Below are positions 51,572 through 63,706 of a DNA stretch of 64,000 bases, one piece after another; positions within the stretch are counted from its first letter, which is position 1; each line of letters starts with the position of its first letter. The notes below the pieces were generated by a model. That model saw nothing but the letters and a program-made list of their open reading frames with translations. It searched no databases and had not been told where the DNA came from. The position numbers and the translations under genes are program-made. Source of the DNA: Acetivibrio saccincola (GTDB lineage: Bacteria; Bacillota; Clostridia; Acetivibrionales; Acetivibrionaceae); the NCBI RefSeq assembly GCF_002844395.1, contig NZ_CP025197.1, forward strand, positions 868,001 to 932,000. The letters are read 5' to 3'.

Positions 51572-54500
51572 ATGAGTTTAATTGTTTTTATTGATACAGA
51601 AATTCATCCAAAAAGCAGAAAGGTCATTGACACAGGGGGTATTAAGGAAGACGGCAGTCCTTTTCACTCTGGTTCTGTTACTGATTTTATTGACTTTATA
51701 AAGGATTCTGAATTTATCTGTGGTCACAATATTCTAAATCACGATTTAAAATATATTAAAGATGCACTGATAGGCAAAAAGACAGGTAATTTAAAGGTTA
51801 TTGACACTGTTTTTCTTTCACCTCTGTTATTTCCGGCAAAACCTTACCACTCTTTACTAAAAGACGATAAGATTCAGACAGAGGAGATGAACAATCCCTT
51901 AAACGATGCAATAAAAGCAAGGGATCTTTTCTATGATGAAGTTGAAGCCTTTAAAAATATAGATGAAGAACTAAAACAAATATTTTATATTTTATTAAAA
52001 GACAAAAAGGAATTTAGCGCTTTTTTTGAATATATCAAATACAACAATAACGAAATAAATGCAGAAAAACTAATTGAAAATAAATTTAATGCACAAATAT
52101 GTAAAAATGCCGATATTTCAAAAATAATTTCAGACCATCCCATAGAGCTTGCATACTGTCTGGCTTTGATAAATGCGGGAATAAAATATTCAATTACCCC
52201 TCCCTGGGTGTTAAAGCAGTTTCCTGAAACAAGAAAGGTTATGTTTCTTTTGAGGGACAACCCGTGCCTTAAGGGCTGCCCTTATTGTAATAAAGCCCAT
52301 GATATTTACAAGGGATTAAAAAAATTTTTTGGATTTGATTCTTTTAGAAAATACGGAGGTGAGCCCTTGCAGGAAAAGGCTGTAAAGGCTGCCGTGGAAA
52401 ACAAATCCCTTCTTGCTGTATTTCCCACCGGCGGGGGAAAATCCATTACATTTCAACTGCCTGCACTAATGAGCGGAGAAAATGTAAAAGGTCTAACGGT
52501 GGTTATATCCCCCTTGCAGTCTTTAATGAAAGACCAGGTGGACAACTTAGAAAGGAAGGGTATAACGGAGGCGGTAACTATAAACGGACTCCTTGACCCT
52601 ATTGAGCGGGCAGTGTCCATTGAAAGGATTGAAAACGGCTCTGCTTCCATCCTTTACATTTCACCGGAGTCTTTGCGTTCAAAGACAATGGAACGGCTTC
52701 TTTTAGGCCGGAATGTTGTCAGGTTTGTTATAGATGAAGCCCACTGTTTTTCAGCCTGGGGACAGGACTTTAGGGTTGACTACCTTTACATTGGGGATTT
52801 TATAAAATCACTAATGGAAAAGAAAAATTTGCAAAAACCAATTCCCGTCTCCTGCTTTACTGCAACGGCAAGGCAGAGGGTGATTGAAGATATATGCAAT
52901 TATTTTAAAGAAAAGCTTTCTCTTGAGTTGGAGGTTTTCAGGGCTGATGCTTCAAGAACCAACCTCCGCTACAAGGTACTTAATAAAAAGTCTGAAGAGG
53001 AAAAATACCAGTGTGTAAGGGAACTTCTTGAAGAAAAAAGATGCCCTACGATTATCTATGTTTCACGCACAAGACGAGCGTACCACCTGGCAGAACGGCT
53101 TACACAGGACGGTTATTGTGCAAAGCCTTACCACGGCAAAATGGACAAAAAGGAAAGAAGCCAAAATCAAGAAGAATTTATAAAGGGTCAGGTTCAGATT
53201 ATAGTGGCTACATCTGCCTTTGGAATGGGAGTCGATAAAAAGGATGTAGGAATGGTTATCCACTATGAAATTTCAAGTTCACTGGAAGACTACGTACAGG
53301 AAGCCGGAAGGGCAGGCAGGGATGAGAATATAACAGCCGACTGCTATGTGCTTTTCGATGAAGAGGATTTAGACAAGCACTTTATACTGTTAAACCAAAC
53401 AAAGGTCAGTATAAAAGAAATCCAGCAGGTGTGGAAAGCCATAAAAGACATAACAAAATTCCGGTTAAAAGTTTCCCAGTCTGCACTGGAAATTGCAAGG
53501 AAAGCCGGATGGGATGACGGTATTGAGGGAATAGAAACAAGGGTAAAGACCGCCATTGCAGCCTTAGAGGATGCAGGTTATATAAAAAGAGGGCAGAACA
53601 TGCCAAGGGTGTATGCCAACAGCATTCTTGCAAGAAATGCATGTGAGGCGATTTCTAAAATAAACAGGTCTGACAAATTCAATAAAAAACAAAAAGAAAA
53701 GGCAGTTAGAATTATAAGAAAGCTTATTTCTAATAAATACACCAAAGAACCAGGTGATGAAGAAGCAGAATCAAGGATTGACTATATAGCAGACCATTTA
53801 GGACTTGAAAAAAGAGAAGTGGTGGAGATTGTAGAATTACTTAAAGAAGAAAATATTTTGGCGGATTTAAAAGATTTAAAGATTTATATGAAGGAAGGCG
53901 CAAATGAAAAACGTGCATTACGCATATTAAAAACCTTTTTGCGTATTGAAAAATTTTTATTGTCAAATTTGGAGTACGGGGAAAAAGTTTACAACATTAA
54001 AGAGCTAAATGAACAGGCAGAAGAGGAAGGAATTGAAAACATTAGTTCTGAAAGCATAAAAACCATCATAAATTTTTGGAAAATCAAAGGCTGGATAAAA
54101 AGCCAGGTACTTAGCCACTCTAAAGATCTAATGGTGATTTACTGCAATTCCAAAATAGAAGACTTAAAAGAAAAGCTTTCAAAAAGATATGAATTGTCCC
54201 AATTTATTTTAGAATATCTTTATGATAAAAAGAGTAAAGATAAAAAGAAGGAGGAAAATGATAAAAATACGGAGGTAGTAAATTTTTCGGTTTTTGAATT
54301 AAAAAGGGCTTTTCAAAACAGGATAACTCTTTTTAAAACTGAAATAACCACTGAGGACGTAGAAGATGCTATTTTTTACTTGTCCAAAATAGAGATTTTG
54401 TTAATTGAGGGAGGATTTTTGGTTTTATACAATCCCATGGAAATAGAGCGTATAGAAAAAGACAATAAAAAGAGATACAGGCTGGAACACTACGAAAAAC

Positions 54501-56398
54501 TAAGGGAATACTATGAAAATAAAGTGCAGCAAATCCACATAGTAGGGGAATATGCAAAGAAAATGATAGAGGACTACAAAGAAGCCCTTCAATTTGTGGA
54601 TGATTATTTTAAACTTAATTACAGTTCTTTTTTAAATAAATATTTTAAAGGAGGCAGACAAAACGAAATTAAAAGAAATATTACCCCGGAAAAGTTTAGA
54701 CAGATTTTTGGGGAGCTTTCCCCGTCACAGTTGAAAATTATAAATGACAAAGAGTCTGAGTGCATTGTTGTGGCGGCAGGGCCAGGTAGCGGGAAGACGA
54801 GGATTTTGGTTCATAAATTAGCTTCCCTTCTTCTTATGGAAGATGTGAAGCATGAACAGCTGTTGATGCTCACCTTTTCCAGGTCTTCAGCCACCGAATT
54901 TAAAAAACGCTTGTTGGGGCTTATTGGGAATGCCGCAAATTTTGTTGATATAAAAACTTTTCACTCCTACTCCTTTGATTTGTTGGGGAGGGTGGGGACT
55001 TTGGAGAAGTCGGACAGAATAGTAAGGGAAGCGGTGGAAAAAATTAAAAAGGGAGAAGTTGAAAGAAGGAAAATAACAAAGACGGTTTTGGTAATTGATG
55101 AAGCCCAGGACATGGACGGGGATGAATTTGCCCTTATAAATGCCCTGATGGAACACAATGAAAATATGCGGGTAATTGCAGTGGGGGATGATGACCAGAA
55201 TATTTATGAATTCAGGGGTTCCAGCTCAAAGTATATGGAATATTTGATAAAAAGAAAAGGAGCAAAAGTCTACGAACTTTTAGAAAATTTCAGGAGCAAA
55301 AGAAATTTAGTTGATTTTACAAACCAGTTTGTAAAAAGAATATCTTACAGGCTAAAAAGCACCCCTATTGTTCCTTTTCAAAATGACAACGGGAAAATAA
55401 AACTGGTGGAATATAAAAGTTCCAATCTTATCACGCCTTTGGTGGCAGATATACTGTCTGAAGACCTTTCAGGTTCCACCTGTGTACTTACCAGAACCAA
55501 TGATGAGGCGCTGCAGATTACGGCACTGCTTCTGAAAAACGGGATGGAGGCAAAATTAATACAGTCAAATGAAGGGTTTGGCATACAAAATCTTTTGGAG
55601 GTAAGTTTCTTTTTAAATCAGCTAAAACTTGATGATTCTTACATGATAAGTGAGGAAGTCTGGGAAAAAGCAAAGGGGAATCTGAAAGAAACCTATGCTA
55701 AAAGTCCCAATTATGAAATTTGCGCTAATCTTATAAAGGATTTTGAATGTGTAAATAACAAAAATAAATACAAAACAGATTTGGAAGTTTTCATCCGGGA
55801 GTCAAAGCTTGAAGATTTTTATAGGGGAAGGGCAGAAACAATTTTGGTATCAACTTTTCACAGGGCAAAGGGAAGGGAGTTTGACAATGTGTACTTGATG
55901 CTGGACAGATTTAATATAAGGTCTGATGAGGATTTGAGACTTCTCTACGTTGCTATGACAAGGGCAAAAGAGAATTTGACAATTCACCACAACGGGGATT
56001 ATTTTAAATATATTAAGGCGGAAAAAATGGAAGTAATAAAAGATGAGAATACATATTTTCCGCCGGATGAATTGGTGGTACAGCCGGGATTTAAGGATGT
56101 TTGGCTGGACTTTTTTATACACTCCCAAAACCTGATTTTTAATCTTAATACCGGGGACGAACTTATAGTGGACGGTGATTATTGCTGCAATTTAAAGGGA
56201 CAAAAAATTTTATGTTTTTCAAAACAGTTTAAAAATAAAATCCGGTCTATAAATGAAGCGGGCTATGTGCCCTGCGGTGCAAAGATTAAATTTATCGTTT
56301 ACTGGCAAAGGGAAGATTCAGATTATAAAATACGTATAGTGCTTCCTGAAATACGTTTTACTTTTAACCCTATTGACAAAAAGGAAAATATCACATAA
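51572..56398 (+). CDS. exonuclease-RecQ-UvrD fusion helicase
   Basis: 1608 residues carrying three enzymes. Residues about 1-130 look like a DEDD 3'-5' exonuclease (IVFIDTEIHPKSRKVIDTGG, CGHNILNHDLKYI, PLNDAIKARDLF). A CLKGCPYC pair at about 230-240 may bind metal. Residues 260-800 are a RecQ helicase: FPTGGGKS at 284-291, SPLQSLMKDQ, VIDEAHCFSAWGQDFR, CFTATARQRV, ATSAFGMGVDK and QEAGRAGRD. From about 1055 there is a UvrD-type SF1 helicase: AAGPGSGKT near 1069, VLVIDEAQDM, AVGDDDQNIYEFRGS, VSTFHRAKGREFDNVY and LLYVAMTRAKE. The predicted role is DNA end processing or recombination. The start (ATG 51572) has only a weak site (GGGA). Confidence 0.85.
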   Translation: MSLIVFIDTEIHPKSRKVIDTGGIKEDGSPFHSGSVTDFIDFIKDSEFICGHNILNHDLKYIKDALIGKKTGNLKVIDTVFLSPLLFPAKPYHSLLKDDKIQTEEMNNPLNDAIKARDLFYDEVEAFKNIDEELKQIFYILLKDKKEFSAFFEYIKYNNNEINAEKLIENKFNAQICKNADISKIISDHPIELAYCLALINAGIKYSITPPWVLKQFPETRKVMFLLRDNPCLKGCPYCNKAHDIYKGLKKFFGFDSFRKYGGEPLQEKAVKAAVENKSLLAVFPTGGGKSITFQLPALMSGENVKGLTVVISPLQSLMKDQVDNLERKGITEAVTINGLLDPIERAVSIERIENGSASILYISPESLRSKTMERLLLGRNVVRFVIDEAHCFSAWGQDFRVDYLYIGDFIKSLMEKKNLQKPIPVSCFTATARQRVIEDICNYFKEKLSLELEVFRADASRTNLRYKVLNKKSEEEKYQCVRELLEEKRCPTIIYVSRTRRAYHLAERLTQDGYCAKPYHGKMDKKERSQNQEEFIKGQVQIIVATSAFGMGVDKKDVGMVIHYEISSSLEDYVQEAGRAGRDENITADCYVLFDEEDLDKHFILLNQTKVSIKEIQQVWKAIKDITKFRLKVSQSALEIARKAGWDDGIEGIETRVKTAIAALEDAGYIKRGQNMPRVYANSILARNACEAISKINRSDKFNKKQKEKAVRIIRKLISNKYTKEPGDEEAESRIDYIADHLGLEKREVVEIVELLKEENILADLKDLKIYMKEGANEKRALRILKTFLRIEKFLLSNLEYGEKVYNIKELNEQAEEEGIENISSESIKTIINFWKIKGWIKSQVLSHSKDLMVIYCNSKIEDLKEKLSKRYELSQFILEYLYDKKSKDKKKEENDKNTEVVNFSVFELKRAFQNRITLFKTEITTEDVEDAIFYLSKIEILLIEGGFLVLYNPMEIERIEKDNKKRYRLEHYEKLREYYENKVQQIHIVGEYAKKMIEDYKEALQFVDDYFKLNYSSFLNKYFKGGRQNEIKRNITPEKFRQIFGELSPSQLKIINDKESECIVVAAGPGSGKTRILVHKLASLLLMEDVKHEQLLMLTFSRSSATEFKKRLLGLIGNAANFVDIKTFHSYSFDLLGRVGTLEKSDRIVREAVEKIKKGEVERRKITKTVLVIDEAQDMDGDEFALINALMEHNENMRVIAVGDDDQNIYEFRGSSSKYMEYLIKRKGAKVYELLENFRSKRNLVDFTNQFVKRISYRLKSTPIVPFQNDNGKIKLVEYKSSNLITPLVADILSEDLSGSTCVLTRTNDEALQITALLLKNGMEAKLIQSNEGFGIQNLLEVSFFLNQLKLDDSYMISEEVWEKAKGNLKETYAKSPNYEICANLIKDFECVNNKNKYKTDLEVFIRESKLEDFYRGRAETILVSTFHRAKGREFDNVYLMLDRFNIRSDEDLRLLYVAMTRAKENLTIHHNGDYFKYIKAEKMEVIKDENTYFPPDELVVQPGFKDVWLDFFIHSQNLIFNLNTGDELIVDGDYCCNLKGQKILCFSKQFKNKIRSINEAGYVPCGAKIKFIVYWQREDSDYKIRIVLPEIRFTFNPIDKKENIT

Positions 56399-56405
56399 AA
56401 TAGTA

Positions 56406-56432
56406 TTAGCACTCAGAGGAAGTGAGTGCTAA
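56406..56432 (+). promoter_or_regulatory. perfect CIRCE element (HrcA operator)
   Basis: TTAGCACTC, nine bases, GAGTGCTAA: an exact match to the CIRCE consensus bound by the heat-shock repressor HrcA. It lies eight bases behind the helicase stop. TATAAT at 56443-56448 could be the -10 of a promoter overlapping it, with a poor -35. No groES, groEL or dnaK gene is downstream; the next gene starts at 56771. Confidence 0.8.
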
Positions 56433-56770
56433 AGCAAGTGTCTATAATATAAATGCATCGTTTATTTAACCGCATGTATTTATTTATTCTAAAGTACTCT
56501 TTTTAATGCTGTTTTTTTTTAGTACAATCACTTGTAAAAAGATATTTTTGTTTTTTAAATGCAGTGCCTATTTTCATATTTCTGTATTGCTTTTAGGCTT
56601 TGATTTTATTATTAAAGCTTTAAAGGTGTGTCTATTAGCCAATTGCAAATAAATAACAGGTTCACCGCTAATGAATAGTATATAGAATTACTACTGAAAT
56701 GGGCAATAAACATGAACACCATTAGATTTAATATATGCACTATAAATAAAAGCACTTAGGAGGGATAGCA
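56433..56770 (+). other. 338-base leader between CIRCE and the nucleotidyltransferase gene
   Basis: No gene is supported. AT-rich, with T-rich tracts near 56510-56560. If transcription starts near the CIRCE, this is a long 5' leader; otherwise it holds a second promoter or a small RNA. Confidence 0.4.
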
Positions 56771-57814
56771 ATGAAAGCATTATTTTTAGCAGGTGGGAAA
56801 GGTACCAGGCTAAGACCCATTACAAATGAATTGCCAAAGCCTATGGTACCAGTTGTTGGAAAACCTCTGTTGGAAAGGAATATAGAAAGACTAAAAGAAC
56901 ATGGTGTAGATGAAGTGGTACTTAGTACATGCTATAAGCCTTATAAAATTGAAAAATATTTTGGCAACGGGGAGAAGCTGGGAATAAAAATAAACTACAT
57001 ATCAGAGGACATACCTTTAGGGACAGCCGGCGCAATAAAAAATGCGGAAGAGTTTTTTGATGACACCTTTATTGTTTTTAATGCAGATATATTAAGCGAT
57101 ATAAATATTTCAGACATGATTAGATGGCACAAGGAAAAGGGTGCTTTTGCTACCATAGCAACAACGGAAGTGGACGATCCATCAGCGTACGGGGTTATTG
57201 AATATGATGAAAAAGGGTTTGTTACTGCTTTTAAGGAAAAGCCAAAGCCTCATGAGACAGACTCAAATCTTATAAATGCGGGTATTTATATATTTGAGCC
57301 GGAATTATTCAATGAAATACCTTCAGGCAGAACGGTTTCAATAGAGCGGGAAACGTATCCTCAGCTTCTTGAAAAAGGGAAAAAAATAGCGGTGTATAAT
57401 AAGTGTTCATATTGGTTAGACCTTGGAACGCCTGATAAATATATAAAGGCTCATAAGGACATACTAAACGGGGATTTTAAAATGTTAAATCATGACTTTA
57501 AGAAAAGCCCTCAGTATATAAGCAGTACTGCTAAAATACATCAAAATGCAAAAATTGTAGGGCCGTGTTATATTGGTGAGAATGTTGAGATTGGTGCCCA
57601 TGCTGTAGTGGGACCTGATACATTTTTAGGTGACAATTCACGTGTGGGCGCTAGTTCAAAGATTATAGGAAGTGTAATTTGGGACAATGCAAGGGTGGAA
57701 AAAGGAGCTTTAATTGCCAATTCAGTTATAATGTCAAATTGCAAAGTTGATATGAATACTGAAGAGCGCAATGTAATACTAACTGAAGGTGTTTGCCACC
57801 CGATTGCGGTATAA
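56771..57814 (+). CDS. sugar-1-phosphate nucleotidyltransferase, probable mannose-1-phosphate guanylyltransferase
   Basis: 347 residues with GGAGGGA before the ATG. The nucleotidyltransferase domain (1-235) begins LAGGKGTRLRPITNELPKP, with the activating Lys in PKPM, and has NADIL (metal Asp), YGVIEYDEKG, EKPKP, INAGIYIFEP and the SYWLDLGTPDKYIKAH motif. The last 100 residues are a left-handed beta-helix of hexapeptides (AKIHQNAKIVGPCYIGENVEIGAHAVVG). The set is typical of bacterial GDP-mannose pyrophosphorylases (GTP + mannose-1-P to GDP-mannose), although glucose-specific relatives exist. The neighbours (GT4, GH130) favour mannose. Confidence 0.85.
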   Translation: MKALFLAGGKGTRLRPITNELPKPMVPVVGKPLLERNIERLKEHGVDEVVLSTCYKPYKIEKYFGNGEKLGIKINYISEDIPLGTAGAIKNAEEFFDDTFIVFNADILSDINISDMIRWHKEKGAFATIATTEVDDPSAYGVIEYDEKGFVTAFKEKPKPHETDSNLINAGIYIFEPELFNEIPSGRTVSIERETYPQLLEKGKKIAVYNKCSYWLDLGTPDKYIKAHKDILNGDFKMLNHDFKKSPQYISSTAKIHQNAKIVGPCYIGENVEIGAHAVVGPDTFLGDNSRVGASSKIIGSVIWDNARVEKGALIANSVIMSNCKVDMNTEERNVILTEGVCHPIAV

Positions 57815-57904
57815 ATTGCAGGATAGGACCCTTAAGACAGGGTCTTTCCCCAGTCTTAAATTAAAAAATACAATTAACTGAAGAACAATAAGGAGGTATA
57901 AGAT

Positions 57905-59083
57905 ATGACATTAAACAGAATAAGAAACGTGGCATTTTTGAGCACATATCCTTCAAGGGAGTGTGGACTGGCAACATTTACACAGGACTTGGTCAGGGCT
58001 TTAGACGATGTGGATCTGATAGACAGCCCTAAAGTAATTGCGGTAAGTGATAGTGATGAGTATCAATATAGTGATAGAGTGATAATGGAAATTTCACAGT
58101 ATGACAGGAATAGTTATATTAAAGCAGCAAAGCAAATAAACAAATCCGATATAGAATTGGTTGTAATAGAGCATGAGTATGGAATTTTTGGTGGGGAAGC
58201 GGGAGAGTATATTTTAGACTTTGCAAAGAATTTAGAAATACCTTTTGTTACAACCCTTCACACAGTGCTTCCATGTCCGGGAGAAAAGGAAAGGGAAGTG
58301 TTAAGAGAGCTTGGTAAAAGAAGTGCAAAAGTTGTTACCATGGCTAAAAACACAAAGCCTCTTTTAAAAGATGTTTATGAAATGGATTTGTCCAAGGTAG
58401 AGGTTATTCACCATGGAGTTCCCTACAGGATTTTGGAGTCCCGGGAAAAGCTTAAAGAAAAACACGGTTTTTCAGGTAAAAATGTAATAAGTACTTTTGG
58501 ACTTTTAAGCCCTGGGAAAGGACTTGAATACGGAATAGAAGCAGTTGCTAAAGTTGTAAAAGAGCACAAGGATATGGTGTATCTCATTTTAGGCCAGACA
58601 CATCCTGCTATTAAAAAGAGATCAGGTGAAGAATACAGGGAAAAGCTTATTGCCAAAGTTAACGAACTAGGAATCGGGGATCATGTTATATTTGTTGATA
58701 AATACCTTACAAAGGATGAAATCATCCAATACTTAAGAATGTCAGACATATATATGACACCGTATTTAGGCAAAGACCAGGCAGTAAGCGGTACCCTTGC
58801 TTATGCTGTGGGATATGGCAGGGTAATAGTTTCAACCCCGTATAGATATGCAGAAGAAATGCTGTCAGAAGGCCGCGGTCTTTTAGCAGAGTTTAGGAAC
58901 TCTGATTCTTTAGCTGAAAAGTTGAAATATGTTATTGAAAATCCTGAAGAGAAAAAAGAAATGGAAAACAAGACCCTAAGTCTTGGCAGGACAATGATGT
59001 GGGAAGATATTGCTAGGCAATATGCTAAAATGTTCATTAAAACGGTTGAAGAAGTAAGGCTGAAAGACAGTGTAGTGGTGTAA
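57905..59083 (+). CDS. GT4-family glycosyltransferase
   Basis: 392 residues, ATG after AAGGAGGT. GT-B fold with an N-terminal acceptor domain (FLSTYPSRECGLATFTQDLVRAL, VIEHEYGIFGGEAG, PFVTTLHTVL) and the C-terminal nucleotide-sugar domain (FGLLSPGKGLEYGIEAVAKV, YLILGQTHP, YLTKDEIIQYLRMSDIYMTPYLGKDQAVSGTLAYAVG). The donor is probably GDP-mannose made by the upstream gene. The 90-base gap and same strand imply an operon. A degenerate repeat begins in its last codons (DSVVV-stop). Product polymer unknown. Confidence 0.88.
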   Translation: MTLNRIRNVAFLSTYPSRECGLATFTQDLVRALDDVDLIDSPKVIAVSDSDEYQYSDRVIMEISQYDRNSYIKAAKQINKSDIELVVIEHEYGIFGGEAGEYILDFAKNLEIPFVTTLHTVLPCPGEKEREVLRELGKRSAKVVTMAKNTKPLLKDVYEMDLSKVEVIHHGVPYRILESREKLKEKHGFSGKNVISTFGLLSPGKGLEYGIEAVAKVVKEHKDMVYLILGQTHPAIKKRSGEEYREKLIAKVNELGIGDHVIFVDKYLTKDEIIQYLRMSDIYMTPYLGKDQAVSGTLAYAVGYGRVIVSTPYRYAEEMLSEGRGLLAEFRNSDSLAEKLKYVIENPEEKKEMENKTLSLGRTMMWEDIARQYAKMFIKTVEEVRLKDSVVV

Positions 59084-59215
59084 ACAGTAAAGCGGCGTAA
59101 AATAGTATAGTGGTGTAAGCAATAAAGTGATGTAAACAGTAGAGCAGCGTAAAATAGTGTAGTGGCGTAAAAGTATATATAGTGGTGTAAATATAGTAAA
59201 GTGGTGTAATAAAAG
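59070..59215 (+). repeat. degenerate GTGGTGTAA minisatellite across the stop codon
   Basis: About eight imperfect units of 16-20 bases built on AGTGGTGTAAA plus AGTA (for example at 59076, 59091, 59109, 59126, 59142, 59159, 59182, 59201). The first unit contains the GT4 stop codon. Confidence 0.75.
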
Positions 59216-59291
59216 TGCCGTGATAAGCTAAAAGGCAGCACAATTTAGCAAAGAAGCAATACAATAAAAAATAGCAAAAGGTGATACAGTA

Positions 59292-60329
59292 ATGGAGAAT
59301 ACATTACCAGGTAAAGAAGAAAATAAAGAGATAAATGACCATTTTATTTTCCTCTTAACTGATGATACAGGTATATTTCAACATTCAAAATACGGGGTGC
59401 CCGACCCTAGATACGGATATACAACTGATGACAATGCCCGTGCCTTAATTATGGCAGTTATGCTGTATGAAAGGTACGGGGAGAAAAAGTATTTCGATTT
59501 AATACACAGATATTCTTCTTTCATGCTAAATGCTTTAAATGAAAGAGGAAGATTTAGAAACTTTATGAGCTATGACAGGAAATGGCTTGAAGAAGAGGGG
59601 TCAGAAGACAGCTATGGAAGGTCACTTTGGGCTTTAGGTTATGCCATTTCCAACCAGCACATCCCTTCAGGAGTAAAGGGGGCTTTAAGGTATATATTTA
59701 AAAAAGCCCTGCCCAACGTTACATCTCTGCAGCACCTAAGGGCTAAAGCCTATTCCATTATAGGAATGGAGTATTCAGGTGATGCTTCTTTAAAGGAATA
59801 TATTTTGAAACTGGCAGAAGAACTTAGTGACAGCTACTATAAAAGCAGAAGCAGTGACTGGAAATGGTTTGAAGATTGTATAACTTACAGCAACAGTGTA
59901 TTGCCCTGGTCACTTTTTAAAGCATACAAAGTTACAGGTAATAAAGAGTTTTTAGAAGTTGCAGAAGAAAGCCTTGGATTTTTAGAAAGTGTAACTTTTA
60001 AAGACGGTTTATTTAAGCCTGTAGGATGTAGCGGGTGGTTCATGAAGGGCAAAGAGCCTGCTAAATTTGATGAGCAGCCTGTCGAAGCCTGTGAAACTGT
60101 TTTAACATATTTAGAAGGTTATAATATTACAGGCAATGTAAGGTACAAAGATCAGGCAAAAAGGTGTCACAAATGGTATGAAGGTGAAAATATTAAAGGC
60201 ATAAGCCTGATAGATACTGAAACAGGCGGATGTTTTGACGGTCTTACAGAGGATGGGTATAACCGGAATAAAGGTTCTGAAAGCCTCATTTCTTACTATA
60301 TTTCCTATCTTAGCACTGTAGACATATAG
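59292..60329 (+). CDS. alpha/alpha-toroid-like protein, GT4 partner
   Basis: 345 residues, ATG after AAGGTGAT. A helical repeat protein with TTDDNARALIMAVMLYERYG, GRFRNFMSYDRKWLEEEGSEDSYGRSLWALGYA, DWKWFEDCITYSNSVLPWSLFKAYKVTG and FDEQPVEACETVLTYLEGYNITG. Acidic and aromatic residues lie at helix ends, as in six-hairpin glycosidases and epimerases. Similar proteins accompany or are fused to GT4 enzymes in other bacteria, sometimes annotated as glycosyltransferase. Enzymatic role not known; it may process or build the mannoside made by the two upstream genes. Confidence 0.6.
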   Translation: MENTLPGKEENKEINDHFIFLLTDDTGIFQHSKYGVPDPRYGYTTDDNARALIMAVMLYERYGEKKYFDLIHRYSSFMLNALNERGRFRNFMSYDRKWLEEEGSEDSYGRSLWALGYAISNQHIPSGVKGALRYIFKKALPNVTSLQHLRAKAYSIIGMEYSGDASLKEYILKLAEELSDSYYKSRSSDWKWFEDCITYSNSVLPWSLFKAYKVTGNKEFLEVAEESLGFLESVTFKDGLFKPVGCSGWFMKGKEPAKFDEQPVEACETVLTYLEGYNITGNVRYKDQAKRCHKWYEGENIKGISLIDTETGGCFDGLTEDGYNRNKGSESLISYYISYLSTVDI

Positions 60330-60364
60330 CAGTATTTGTTATAAAATAAAAGATTAGTGTTGAT

Positions 60365-60410
60365 AAATGTTCTAGCTAAAACTAAATATTTAGTTTTAGC
60401 TAGACATTTC
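60365..60410. terminator. perfect palindrome, probable terminator
   Basis: Bases 60371-60404 form a 34-base perfect palindrome centred on TAAATATTTA, with AAATG/CATTT pairing just outside and TTTTT at 60413-60417. Stands between the toroid gene and the kinase gene. Confidence 0.65.
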
Positions 60411-60462
60411 ACTTTTTAATATAAAAAATAATACGGGCTTTCAAGGAACAAGGAATGATATT

Positions 60463-62154
60463 ATGTTAAACAGGAAAATCAGTATAACAAGATACAGACA
60501 GATAATCACAGTGCTGACAAAGCACGGTTTTGGTCTGCTATTAGACCAGCTTGGAATTTTTAAATATTTAAAAATGAAAAAATTAAATTCAGAAGATGCG
60601 AGAAGTGATAAGGTCAAGCTTTCTACAGGGGAGAGGCTCCGCTTGTCATTAGAAGAGCTTGGACCTACATTTATTAAGCTAGGACAGGTATTGAGCACAA
60701 GGCCGGATATTTTGCCGGCAGATATTGTAGAAGAGCTGAAGAAGCTTCAGGATTCAGTTCCTTCAATTTCCTTTGATGAAGTAAAAAAAGTAATAGAAGA
60801 AGAGTTTAAAGAAGAGCTGAAAAATATCTACAAAGAATTTGAAGAAGAACCGATAGCAGCAGCTTCCATATCCCAGGTACACCGGGCAAGGCTTATTACA
60901 GGTCAAGAAGTTGCTGTTAAAGTACAAAGACCTGAAATAGAAAAAATAATAAAGCAGGATATAAATATTCTAAAAGACTTGGCAAGTTTTGTGGACAACC
61001 ATACCAAGTACGGCAAAACCTACAGCTTTAAGGAAATGGTTTTAGAGCTGGAAGGAGTAATTAAAAATGAATTGGATTTTACTAAAGAAGCAGAAAATTT
61101 AGACAGGTTTAAAGAGAATTTTGCTAAGGATGAAGGTGTTATTGTGCCAAATGTGAAGTGGGTTTACACCAAAAAACGTGTTCTTACTATGGAGTATGTG
61201 GAAGGTATTAAAATAGATGACCATGAGAAACTGGACAAGGCCGGTTTAGACAGGAATGAAATTGCAGAAAGGCTTGCAACTTCTATCTGCAATCAAATAT
61301 TAAGGGATGGTTTTTTTCATGCAGACCCACACCCGGGGAATATACGGATTTTACCTGATGGTACCATAATTTTCTTAGACTTAGGAATGGTTGGTACTTT
61401 AAGTGAGTCCAGAAAAAATATGATATTAAAATTTTTCATAGGGGTTACCTCTAGAAACAGCAAGTTAGTTGTTAAGTCAATAGTTGATATGGGGGCAATA
61501 CAAAATAAAAGTAATTTAAAAATGTTTGAAAAAGATGTGGATGAAATTATAGATAAATACCTGACAATGCCTCTAAAGGAAATAAAAATTGATGAAGCGG
61601 TTTATGAGATTTTTAATATAGCACATTCAAACCAAATTAGAATCCCAAGGGAATTTGCACTTTTAGCAAAGACATTAGGCACACTTCAAGGGGTACTTGA
61701 AAAACTGTCCCCGGATATTAACCCTGCTATAATTATTAAGCCAGTTGCAAAAAGGCTTATTTATAAATCTTTTACCTTAGAGAGAATAAGCAGGGATATA
61801 AGAAAGAATTTATGGAATTACAGGGAGCTGCTGTCTGAGCTTCCCTCTGCAATGCTAAATTTTTTAATGAAGATGGAAAATGAAAATTTTACTCTTCAGC
61901 TGGAGCTTAAAGAAATAGGGGAGATACAAAAAAGGTTTGAAAGAGCGTTAAACAGGATGTCCTTTAGTCTGGTTTTGCTTTCCATAAGTATTATAATTGC
62001 CGGGATTATAATAGGTTCAAGTTTAAGTGCTACAGCGGGAGTAGGAAGTGAGACATCCTTTTTAAATGTTGTAATATTAAGAGTGAGTTTGGCGGTGGCG
62101 TCAATTATAGTTATTGTAATGGCGATTTCAATGTTAAAGTCAAAAAATCCTTAA
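60463..62154 (+). CDS. ABC1/UbiB-family protein kinase-like protein
   Basis: 563 residues. Family motifs in order: LGPTFIKLGQVLSTRPDILP (KxGQ), ELKKLQDSVPS, PIAAASISQVHRARL (Ala-rich nucleotide loop), VAVKVQRP (Lys), ELDFTKEAEN (ExD), FHADPHPGNI (catalytic) and FLDLGMVG (metal Asp). Two C-terminal membrane segments (SLVLLSISIIIAGIIIG and VVILRVSLAVASIIVIVMAISML) anchor it. In other bacteria UbiB supports quinone biosynthesis and lipid handling; here no ubi gene is near and the organism is probably anaerobic, so the role may be lipid-related. Weak ribosome site (AAGGAA), ATG at 60463. Confidence 0.9.
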   Translation: MLNRKISITRYRQIITVLTKHGFGLLLDQLGIFKYLKMKKLNSEDARSDKVKLSTGERLRLSLEELGPTFIKLGQVLSTRPDILPADIVEELKKLQDSVPSISFDEVKKVIEEEFKEELKNIYKEFEEEPIAAASISQVHRARLITGQEVAVKVQRPEIEKIIKQDINILKDLASFVDNHTKYGKTYSFKEMVLELEGVIKNELDFTKEAENLDRFKENFAKDEGVIVPNVKWVYTKKRVLTMEYVEGIKIDDHEKLDKAGLDRNEIAERLATSICNQILRDGFFHADPHPGNIRILPDGTIIFLDLGMVGTLSESRKNMILKFFIGVTSRNSKLVVKSIVDMGAIQNKSNLKMFEKDVDEIIDKYLTMPLKEIKIDEAVYEIFNIAHSNQIRIPREFALLAKTLGTLQGVLEKLSPDINPAIIIKPVAKRLIYKSFTLERISRDIRKNLWNYRELLSELPSAMLNFLMKMENENFTLQLELKEIGEIQKRFERALNRMSFSLVLLSISIIIAGIIIGSSLSATAGVGSETSFLNVVILRVSLAVASIIVIVMAISMLKSKNP

Positions 62155-62191
62155 AGGATGAAAAAAACTATGAAATATTCACGGAACATAT

Positions 62192-62225
62192 AAAACCCCA
62201 GGGGAATATTCTCACCTGGGGTTTT
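62192..62225. terminator. bidirectional terminator between kinase and GH130 genes
   Basis: AAAACCCCAGG (62192-62202) pairs with CCTGGGGTTTT (62215-62225), 12-base loop, T and A runs outside. The two genes are convergent. Confidence 0.85.
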
Positions 62226-62245
62226 TACCACTTAGAATATCTAAT

Positions 62246-63706
62246 TTATTTTAACATTTTAAAATTATCAAAGAGTTCTTTTACAGGTACAGATGCAAAA
62301 CCTGAATTGGTGTCAGACATTGCATAAGGTATAATTAAGTGGTCATTATGAAGGAGAGCTCCGCAGGAGTATACCACATTTGGCACATACCCTTCACGTT
62401 CCTCCTCTGTCGGGGTCAAAAGAGGCTCCTCAAGAACACCGATTACCTTTGAAGGATCTTCTAAATCAAGTAAAATTGCACCGATGCAGTACTGACGCAT
62501 AGGTCCTACCCCGTGGGTGAGCAAAATCCAGCCTTCATCTGTTTCGATAGGAGAACCACAATTGCCAATCTGCATTATTTCCCATGGAAACTCAGGTTTT
62601 TTCAAAAGCTTGTGTTCATTCCAAAAATGTATATTGTCAGACTCCATTATAAACAACTGTTCTCCGTCTATCCTGGATATCATCATATACTTGCCGTTTA
62701 CCTTTCGTGGGAACAAAGCCATGCCTTTGTCTTTTACTGACTTTCCGTTTAATGTTATCATTTTAAAAGAAAGAAAATCTTTAGTTTCAAGTAATTGAGG
62801 CAAAATACTCTTACCATTGTATGCGGTATAAGTTGCATAATAGGTAACGCTTCCATTGTCATCTACAAATTTTACAAACCTTGCATCTTCAATCCCGTTG
62901 CTTTCATTACTTGACACAGGTACAATTACTCTTTCTGATAATTTTTGATCAAAACTGAATTGTATTTCATAATTTGACTCTGCCAGCCATTTTATATCAC
63001 TGATTGTCTTTTCAAATGCAGAAGTCAAAGAAACTTCACGTTTTTGTATAAGATTTATTGACGCTAAAAGTTCTGATAGTGTAAAACTATCACCCAGGTA
63101 TGAAAAGACCTCATTTACATGGTAATCCATGCAATTCATTTCCTTAAGCTTCATTAAAAAAGTGTGTTTGTCATAAGTAGGGTTTTTCAAAACCTTAGGT
63201 GTTTCAGCAAATCTGCTTACTTCATCAAGTTTTATGGATAGATTTTCGTCAATTACACCGCTTCTAAATTCAATAGAAGAAATATGATTTTCGCCCGTGG
63301 AGCGGAAACTTAATATAAATCTCAAAGAGCCGTCAGGCAATCCATGCTGGTTAAAATGCGGTACAATGGATGGGTTAAAAAAAGCAGCAGCCTGTATTGA
63401 ATATTCATTTGTGAAAGATGCTCCGATAAGTGCCCTTCTAGAATCACTTAAATGAACGCCTTCCGGTATTAAATGCTTTATGGCATTGAAATTTCTATCA
63501 AAAATACGCCATATATTTTTATGTCTGTGGGAGAAATTTTCTATAACTTTGTCAAGAATTGACTGCACTTCACTTTCAGAAAAGGACATGATTCTGTTTA
63601 GGACGTTTTTTACTCTTTCATCTTCTCTGGGGCGGTATAGTTTGGCGATAACTCTGCTCTTATCTAGGAAGAATTTGGGTTGCATACGGTTAACGTTTAC
63701 TGCCAT
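62246..63706 (-). CDS. GH130-family mannoside phosphorylase or mannosidase
   Basis: 486 residues, ATG with AGGAGAG upstream. The C-terminal 300 residues are a five-bladed beta-propeller with GH130 marks: NGIEDARFVKF, YYATYTAYNGKSILPQL, KDKGMALFPRKVNGKYMMISR, IGNCGSPIETDEGWILLTHG and YVPNVVYSCGALL. An N-terminal part of about 170 residues (LYRPREDERVKNVLNRIM...) is extra compared with short GH130 phosphorylases. GH130 enzymes act on beta-1,4- or beta-1,2-mannosides, with phosphate or water; subfamily and mechanism cannot be decided here. The convergent mannosyl-type gene set next to it suggests that it degrades or recycles the same product. Confidence 0.85.
   Translation of the reverse strand: MAVNVNRMQPKFFLDKSRVIAKLYRPREDERVKNVLNRIMSFSESEVQSILDKVIENFSHRHKNIWRIFDRNFNAIKHLIPEGVHLSDSRRALIGASFTNEYSIQAAAFFNPSIVPHFNQHGLPDGSLRFILSFRSTGENHISSIEFRSGVIDENLSIKLDEVSRFAETPKVLKNPTYDKHTFLMKLKEMNCMDYHVNEVFSYLGDSFTLSELLASINLIQKREVSLTSAFEKTISDIKWLAESNYEIQFSFDQKLSERVIVPVSSNESNGIEDARFVKFVDDNGSVTYYATYTAYNGKSILPQLLETKDFLSFKMITLNGKSVKDKGMALFPRKVNGKYMMISRIDGEQLFIMESDNIHFWNEHKLLKKPEFPWEIMQIGNCGSPIETDEGWILLTHGVGPMRQYCIGAILLDLEDPSKVIGVLEEPLLTPTEEEREGYVPNVVYSCGALLHNDHLIIPYAMSDTNSGFASVPVKELFDNFKMLK

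Follow-up and report, generated by a model that had tools for sequence, protein, structure and literature searches.

The 64,000-nucleotide stretch of the Acetivibrio saccincola genome analysed here (the window; all coordinates are positions within it) carries a CIRCE element (controlling inverted repeat of chaperone expression), the predicted operator of the repressor HrcA, upstream of three genes for glycan metabolism. Our best overall explanation, to which we assign a probability of roughly 0.6, is that this CIRCE is a working HrcA operator lying over the start of a sigma-A promoter, that the promoter drives a three-gene transcript, and that the encoded enzymes serve a cycle of GDP-mannose and cytosolic mannan. 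Control of the operon by HrcA and heat is very probable; for the polymer cycle taken separately, the odds are about even. HrcA is known as a switch of protein-folding genes. The analysis suggests that a mannose-based carbohydrate is made or remodelled under heat stress in relatives of cellulose-eating clostridia, as a conserved metabolic branch of the known HrcA regulon. In the open literature searched (titles and the starts of abstracts), we found neither an earlier description of such a branch nor a link between CIRCE or HrcA and these genes, and HrcA is not mentioned in the accessible part of PMC8457756.

An exact CIRCE at a sigma-A promoter

The predicted transcription unit is made up as follows:

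56373..56401, + strand: sigma-A type promoter TTGACA-N17-TAAAAT (-35 at 56373-56378, -10 at 56396-56401), lying partly over the 3' end of the helicase gene upstream
56406..56432, no strand: CIRCE, predicted HrcA operator, TTAGCACTC-N9-GAGTGCTAA, 0 mismatches
56433..56770, + strand: untranslated leader of 338 nt, with AGGAGG at 56758-56763
56771..57814, + strand: sugar-1-phosphate nucleotidyltransferase, 347 aa, Pfam NTP_transferase with C-terminal hexapeptide repeats
57905..59083, + strand: GT4 glycosyltransferase, 392 aa, Glycos_transf_1 domain, GT-B fold
59292..60329, + strand: (alpha/alpha)6 toroid enzyme, 345 aa, predicted fold with a marginal Pfam match
60371..60404, + strand: terminator-like 15-bp stem with a T-rich tail, located after the toroid gene and before the next one

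The initial annotation had placed an exact CIRCE before a nucleotidyltransferase, a GT4 enzyme and a toroid protein, with no chaperone gene nearby. The operator and all three genes were found where it put them, and a Pfam and NCBIfam scan of the six open reading frames (ORFs) in 51572-63706 revealed no chaperone. With up to 3 mismatches allowed, the site at 56406-56432 is the sole CIRCE match in the 64 kb; shuffled windows gave a mean of 0.04 matches, with a match in 4 of 100 shuffles. The whole genome (3,604,547 bases, one contig) contains four matches at the same tolerance, all of them exact, and the reversed pattern has none. The three other sites all precede chaperone operons, namely htpG (L005), hrcA-grpE-dnaK (L006) and groES-groEL (L007), as identified by the Pfam families HrcA, GrpE, HSP70, Cpn10, Cpn60 and HSP90; the glycan operon is the fourth.

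The promoter TTGACA-N17-TAAAAT scores 11/12 and is the top promoter-like site in 56200-60600, an interval in which such sites, weak ones included, are no more frequent than in shuffles (15 vs. 15.5). CIRCE begins 4 nt past the -10 hexamer, which would place the predicted transcription start within CIRCE or at its edge, and HrcA is expected to bind at 56406-56432. A known riboswitch or structured leader was rejected, since the 338-nt leader matched no Rfam family at the gathering score and was no more structured than its shuffles (fold z-score -0.40). The stem at 60371-60404 is the probable end of the transcript. It separates the toroid gene from a gene for an ABC1 kinase, which is therefore unlikely to belong to the operon; of the 20 relatives considered below, the three congeneric ones that hold the unit retain this neighbour.

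The arrangement resembles the class I HrcA-CIRCE regulon of Bacillota in the sequence and spacing of the operator, in the sigma-A promoter just upstream, and in the accompanying CIRCEs at hrcA, groESL and htpG. It differs in its target, a chaperone-free glycan operon that is kept through many Clostridia and occurs in some Negativicutes. Candidate HrcA targets other than chaperones exist elsewhere; those predicted in Lactobacillus plantarum include an integrase and a gene without known function (PMC3842655; here and below, statements from cited papers refer to the accessible parts of each).

Conservation of the operator and promoter

We searched 60 genomes, comprising that of the window and 59 relatives. 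Some GT4 match was present in 56 of the 60, and an orthologue of the GT4 gene in 20 of the 59 relatives (L039-L058; 56-90% identity). Identity was 67-90% in 18 of these 20 and 56% in G028; in G013 the gene is split into two ORFs. A CIRCE with at most 2 mismatches lies upstream of the unit in 16 of the 20. Conservation in close relatives was the check that the initial annotation had named beforehand, and it came out in favour of the operator. Exceptions are a congeneric species (L047), L050, L052, where the contig starts only 1.8 kb upstream, and L057. The ORF upstream of CIRCE varies between species while CIRCE stays, and the genes follow it either as nucleotidyltransferase-GT4-toroid or as GH130-nucleotidyltransferase-GT4-toroid. 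CIRCE-bearing units also occur in Pseudobacteroides, Thermoclostridium caenicola, Thermoanaerobacter, Propionispira, and metagenome-assembled genomes (MAGs) named Megamonas, Herbinix and Lachnoclostridium.

The gene upstream of CIRCE in the window (51572-56398) encodes a 1608-aa fusion of a RecQ-type and a UvrD/PcrA-type helicase, found at this locus in only two of the 20 relatives, G004 and G002. CIRCE was rejected as the operator of the helicase gene, which is upstream in 2/20 relatives (L039, L040), as against 16 with CIRCE beside the glycan genes.

A wider search across the phylum gave GT4 matches at E ≤ 1e-80 in 94 of 398 genomes; of the 104 foreign rows, we examined the best 80, and the loci with organism names are the best 80 of at least 589. 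Four of 180 loci lacked a called GT4 ORF (L105, L122, L130, L215) and were dropped, and nine of the remaining 176 were removed because 1.2 kb of sequence at their GT4 start was identical to that of another locus. The resulting 167 loci, among which the window's own genome is not counted, still include close relatives (e.g., L042 and L044, whose GT4 proteins are identical) and are not independent. Within the 3 kb preceding GT4, a CIRCE with no more than 2 mismatches was found in 22 of the 26 loci whose GT4 identity is at least 65%, in 21/45 at 54-65%, and in 0/96 below 54%. Over the same loci, there was no such site in the 3 kb downstream, nor any match to the reversed pattern or to 50 scrambled palindromes. 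Sites with 3 mismatches at L091 (Clostridium sp. cel8) and L157 were scored as CIRCE-less, and those downstream of GT4 in the Eremiobacterota loci L111 and L118 were taken as chance. On the basis of the shuffles, the genome-wide count and the conservation across loci, a chance palindrome was rejected. The initial annotation considered HrcA control outside chaperone operons uncommon; this may be generally true, but among the closest loci such control is the rule (22/26).

The promoter is conserved together with the operator. A promoter scoring at least 10/12, with its -10 hexamer ending at most 20 nt 5' of CIRCE, is present in 43 of 44 loci (window included), and the spacing is exactly 4 nt in 18 of the 43; random places passed the same criterion in 58 of 4400 cases. 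The promoter stretches of L042-L044 are identical. On a GT4 tree of 92 rows built by a quick method (42 with CIRCE, 48 without, 2 not counted), the presence of CIRCE requires at least 10 label changes, compared with 30.1 in shuffles, none of 500 of which was as low. With so few changes, CIRCE is clustered on the tree, after one gain or several; elsewhere it was lost or never acquired. Both states occur in one MAG named Megamonas, where the unit is present twice (L085 and L096), once with CIRCE and once without.

Heat induction in Clostridium thermocellum

The relative G010, which from its gene order we take to be Clostridium thermocellum ATCC 27405, has five CIRCEs, located at htpG, hrcA, groES, the glycan operon and a PF06541 gene. 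Its glycan CIRCE is followed by genes for GH130, the nucleotidyltransferase, GT4, the toroid and ManA, then by three ORFs, a pyruvate:ferredoxin oxidoreductase gene (TIGR02176), four ORFs and an Hsp20 gene; GH130 and ManA are thus the first and fifth genes of the CIRCE unit. Since Cthe_3120, a putative pyruvate:flavodoxin oxidoreductase (PMC3492117), matches the position of the oxidoreductase gene, GH130 fits Cthe_3112, ManA Cthe_3116 and Hsp20 Cthe_3125. In heat-shock arrays from 58 to 68 °C, Cthe_3112 and Cthe_3116 were among the ten most heat-induced genes (PMC3848806). Cthe_3112 ("Glycosidase related protein") gave values of -0.71, -2.61, -2.52 and -1.71 at 10, 30, 60 and 120 min, where negative means higher in heat, and Cthe_3116 ("Mannose-6-phosphate isomerase, class I", i.e., ManA) gave -0.13, -2.78, -2.84 and -2.11 (PMC3848806). 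In the main text of that paper, CIRCE is absent and HrcA appears a single time, in connection with the dnaK operon.

The hypergeometric chance of finding two of five operon genes in the top ten is ≈1e-4, assuming 2900-3200 genes in total and subject to the dependence between genes of the same operon. The fifth CIRCE of G010 (L225:5329-6110) also precedes a non-chaperone gene, encoding a PF06541 membrane protein; PF06541 is presumably the former DUF1113. Cthe_1851, annotated "DUF1113", is in the heat top ten as well (PMC3848806) and is probably this gene. Counting both CIRCE units, three of six genes are in the top ten (5e-7, with the same gene totals assumed and the same dependence within operons).

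Another regulator might account for the heat induction in C. thermocellum, with CIRCE a relic or a chance palindrome. Other heat regulators do exist, as shown by the Hsp20 gene fitting Cthe_3125, which is heat-induced without a CIRCE in L226. We nevertheless consider this explanation very unlikely, given the conserved geometry of site and promoter, the empty controls, and the fit of the other non-chaperone CIRCE gene of G010, that for PF06541, to another gene of the heat top ten. Control by HrcA and heat is well supported because CIRCE and promoter are conserved and two likely orthologous genes are heat-induced in C. thermocellum.

The three enzymes

The product of 56771-57814 is a probable mannose-1-phosphate guanylyltransferase, judging from its NTP_transferase domain and its top NCBIfam match. 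The GT4 model (predicted local distance difference test score, pLDDT, 81.3) has MshA, PimB', BshA, ManT (7qsg) and PimA as fold neighbours. The toroid protein has one Pfam match, C5-epimerase, which is marginal (24.3 bits vs. a cut-off of 23.3), and its model (pLDDT 93.7) is an (alpha/alpha)6 toroid. Among the families that Foldseek and VIA-align list, the best solved fold is 7tem (YPO2471; Z 37.7, root-mean-square deviation 2.3, 327 aligned), followed by the exo-glucosidase/glucosaminidase 6gdt (Z 29.5), cellobiose 2-epimerases (Z 28-29), GH76 mannanases (Z ≈27) and MmpH (7qsj, Z 25.3). Six acidic residues (D24, D46, D47, D260, D316 and E330) are invariant across 55 toroids, among which no histidine is invariant. 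An AGE-type 2-epimerase was rejected: the fold is alike (Z ≈28), but the invariant active-site histidine is missing (titles in the Protein Data Bank name H247 and H248 mutants). The toroid protein is probably a glycan hydrolase.

The GT4 and toroid enzymes are fused into single proteins of 727-869 aa in ten loci (L069, L108, L115, L120, L121, L123, L127, L128, L131 and L161), which span several phyla and Methanosarcina; several adjoin GH130 (L108, Planctomycetes; L120, WOR-3; L123, Blastocatellia; L127, Methanosarcina). Because of these fusions, the two enzymes probably act together, in a basic role wider than heat control. The absence of CIRCE from Paenibacillus, Sporomusaceae and 96 distant loci likewise implies that the basic role of the enzymes is not a heat response.

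The closest well-studied parallel is the methylmannose polysaccharide of mycobacteria, where the GT4 enzyme ManT extends primers released by the endomannosidase MmpH (PMC9883506). The pair described here would likewise combine a GT4 mannosyltransferase with a primer-making hydrolase, and the structures of ManT and MmpH are among the fold neighbours noted above. The key residues of MmpH are Asp47 and Asp50 in the first helix loop and Glu262, a late acidic base, and disruption of the ManT/MmpH system affects the growth rate at low temperature (PMC9883506). The invariant D46, D47, D260 and E330 of the toroid are candidate counterparts of these MmpH residues. The identity to ManT and MmpH, however, is only 18% and 8%, and a methyltransferase is absent from the three genes here. 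We know of no heat control of the ManT/MmpH system.

Evidence for mannose

The window contains one further gene of the presumed pathway, outside the CIRCE transcript:

62246..63706, - strand: long-form GH130, 486 aa, PF04041 at 131 bits (cut-off 26)

This is the only GH130 found in the genome, and its residues D274, R276, K327, R345, H398 and D465 are invariant in nine sequences, including Thermoanaerobacter relatives. It misses the beta-1,2-mannobiose phosphorylase equivalogs NF050092 (161/550 bits) and NF052550 (150/450 bits); its nearest solved structure is a 1,2-beta-oligomannan phosphorylase. The solved relatives of the GH130s are mostly mannoside phosphorylases, and the GH130 of the G010 operon is nearest to TM1225, which has no function assigned, and to a beta-1,4-mannooligosaccharide phosphorylase.

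On the same strand and within 5 kb, the 22 closest CIRCE loci include phosphomannomutase-like genes in 8, ManA in 7 and GH130 in 10; in several units, a phosphomannomutase-like gene (454 aa) or a ManA gene lies near the toroid gene. ManA of G010 scores 144 against its NCBIfam model, above the cut-off of 116. In the window's own genome, ManA and phosphomannomutase-like genes are located elsewhere, away from the operon. A 359-360-aa protein with a common ManC-like start follows GT4 and the toroid in nine loci from Paenibacillus and in a Bacilli MAG. The one such protein scanned (L088) matches Pfam ManC_GMP_beta-helix at 76 bits (cut-off 27) and has the NTP_transferase domain in common with the window nucleotidyltransferase. 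The initial annotation proposed a mannose-containing product made on heat stress; the heat part is well supported, and mannose as the sugar of the pathway has good support from the neighbouring genes, short of proof. The same neighbours point to GDP-mannose as the likely GT4 donor.

A proposed mannan cycle and its alternatives

In the unstressed cell, GroEL would keep HrcA active, and HrcA would repress the operon along with hrcA-grpE-dnaK, groESL and htpG; once GroEL is taken up by misfolded protein, this repression would be lifted. The nucleotidyltransferase would then make GDP-mannose, from which GT4 would add mannosyl units to a growing cytosolic mannan, and the toroid would cut this chain to yield primers or short chains. 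GH130 phosphorylase, which is outside the transcript here and inside the unit in many relatives, would return mannose 1-phosphate. The donor sugar, the polymer, its cytosolic location and the benefit in heat are all conjectural steps of this scheme. A broader proposal, which we regard as tentative and rather doubtful, is that Clostridia and some Negativicutes possess a heat-shock polysaccharide, a self-contained cytosolic mannan cycle switched on by HrcA, which would serve as a protectant or as a quick store of energy and carbon for recovery and would make a carbohydrate one of the normal products of the chaperone regulon. The mannogen of Leishmania is likewise an intracellular mannan turned over by enzymes of the GH130 fold (PMC8950772). 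Its enzymes differ in being GT108 dual glycosyltransferase-phosphorylases, a family that was not searched for here.

The unit also resembles a GH130/GDP-mannose cluster in Thermoanaerobacter (Chiku 2014, PMC4264767), in which mpg, a GT4 gene and the following gene have the same order and GH130 genes adjoin. There, Teth514_1788/1789 phosphorolyse beta-1,2-oligomannan and adjoin mpg, GT4, a hypothetical gene and an ABC importer, and the authors proposed salvage of imported oligomannan (PMC4264767). By this account, the cluster would recycle imported beta-1,2-oligomannan via GH130 into GDP-mannose, and heat would only raise it. We consider this unlikely for the operon described here, although, with the flanking genes annotated in part, importers may lie nearby or elsewhere. 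Several units hold genes for phosphomannomutase or ManA, enzymes on the route from fructose 6-phosphate to mannose 1-phosphate. Moreover, in the Thermoanaerobacter-type loci L071-L073, the GH130 genes are upstream of a CIRCE (2 mismatches) that stands before the nucleotidyltransferase gene; no mention of CIRCE at this cluster was found in the accessible part of PMC4264767. The source of beta-1,2-mannan in Thermoanaerobacter was not known to the authors (PMC4264767), and the operon may provide the mannan source that they could not name for the GH130 enzymes.

A surface or secreted mannan or glycoconjugate that reinforces the envelope in heat appears improbable. GT4 enzymes and GDP-mannose do serve many envelope pathways, and capsular polysaccharide transcripts are altered in L. 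plantarum lacking CtsR or HrcA (PMC3842655). Against this, none of the three genes from CIRCE to the terminator-like stem encodes a flippase or polymerase, and the GT4-toroid fusions also speak for another role. In addition, GH130 phosphorylases need phosphate and return mannose 1-phosphate, which would fit the cytosol. To a small mannose-containing compatible solute, mannosylglycerate-like, we give the same low probability. Such solutes occur in thermophiles, and heat induction fits one, but the phosphatase of the usual two-step routes is not among the three genes, the known solute synthase families not having been searched for, and the fold neighbours of the toroid include polymer-cutting mannanases.

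Several observations weigh against HrcA control of a mannan cycle. On the regulatory side, the operon lacks CIRCE in Acetivibrio alkalicellulosi (L047/L063), of the same genus, and likewise in L050 and L059, as well as in Paenibacillus, Sporomusaceae and the 96 distant loci. The equation of G010 with C. thermocellum is provisional, and the published table comprises the top ten genes only, so that it covers Cthe_3112 and Cthe_3116 but not Cthe_3113-3115. Deletion of hrcA in Thermoanaerobacter kivui caused no significant change in growth at 72 °C (PMC12044746). As to the enzymes, the top NCBIfam match of the nucleotidyltransferase, man1P_GTase_Rv, scores 318 bits, under the cut-off of 440, so that the assignment is at superfamily level only, and the L088 protein misses TIGR01479 (331 vs. 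373 bits), a model that also spans an isomerase part. The GT4 model resembles the UDP-sugar enzymes MshA and BshA as well, which makes the donor sugar ambiguous. The title of 7tem, the top fold match of the toroid, names no function, and mannanases rank behind epimerases. The GH130 relatives differ in linkage between the nearest structures for G010 and for the window; furthermore, GT4 is a retaining enzyme and the GH130 relatives cleave beta-mannosides, which may mean that they act on different bonds.

If HrcA controls this operon, the class I heat response would reach carbohydrate metabolism in a large bacterial group. Genetic tools exist for C. thermocellum. The proposal is testable there and in T. 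kivui, for which tools have been described (PMC12044746).

Other features of the locus

Between the GT4 and toroid genes lies a tandem repeat:

59069..59209, + strand: degenerate 17/35-bp tandem repeat, ≈70% matches

GH130 genes related to the long form in the window adjoin GT4 genes in L108, L131 and L133. In one large ORF that was scanned (L180:363-3923), GH130 is C-terminal and follows ≈860 residues without a Pfam match; across 27 loci, GH130 matches close to GT4 genes fall in ORFs of 917-1219 aa.

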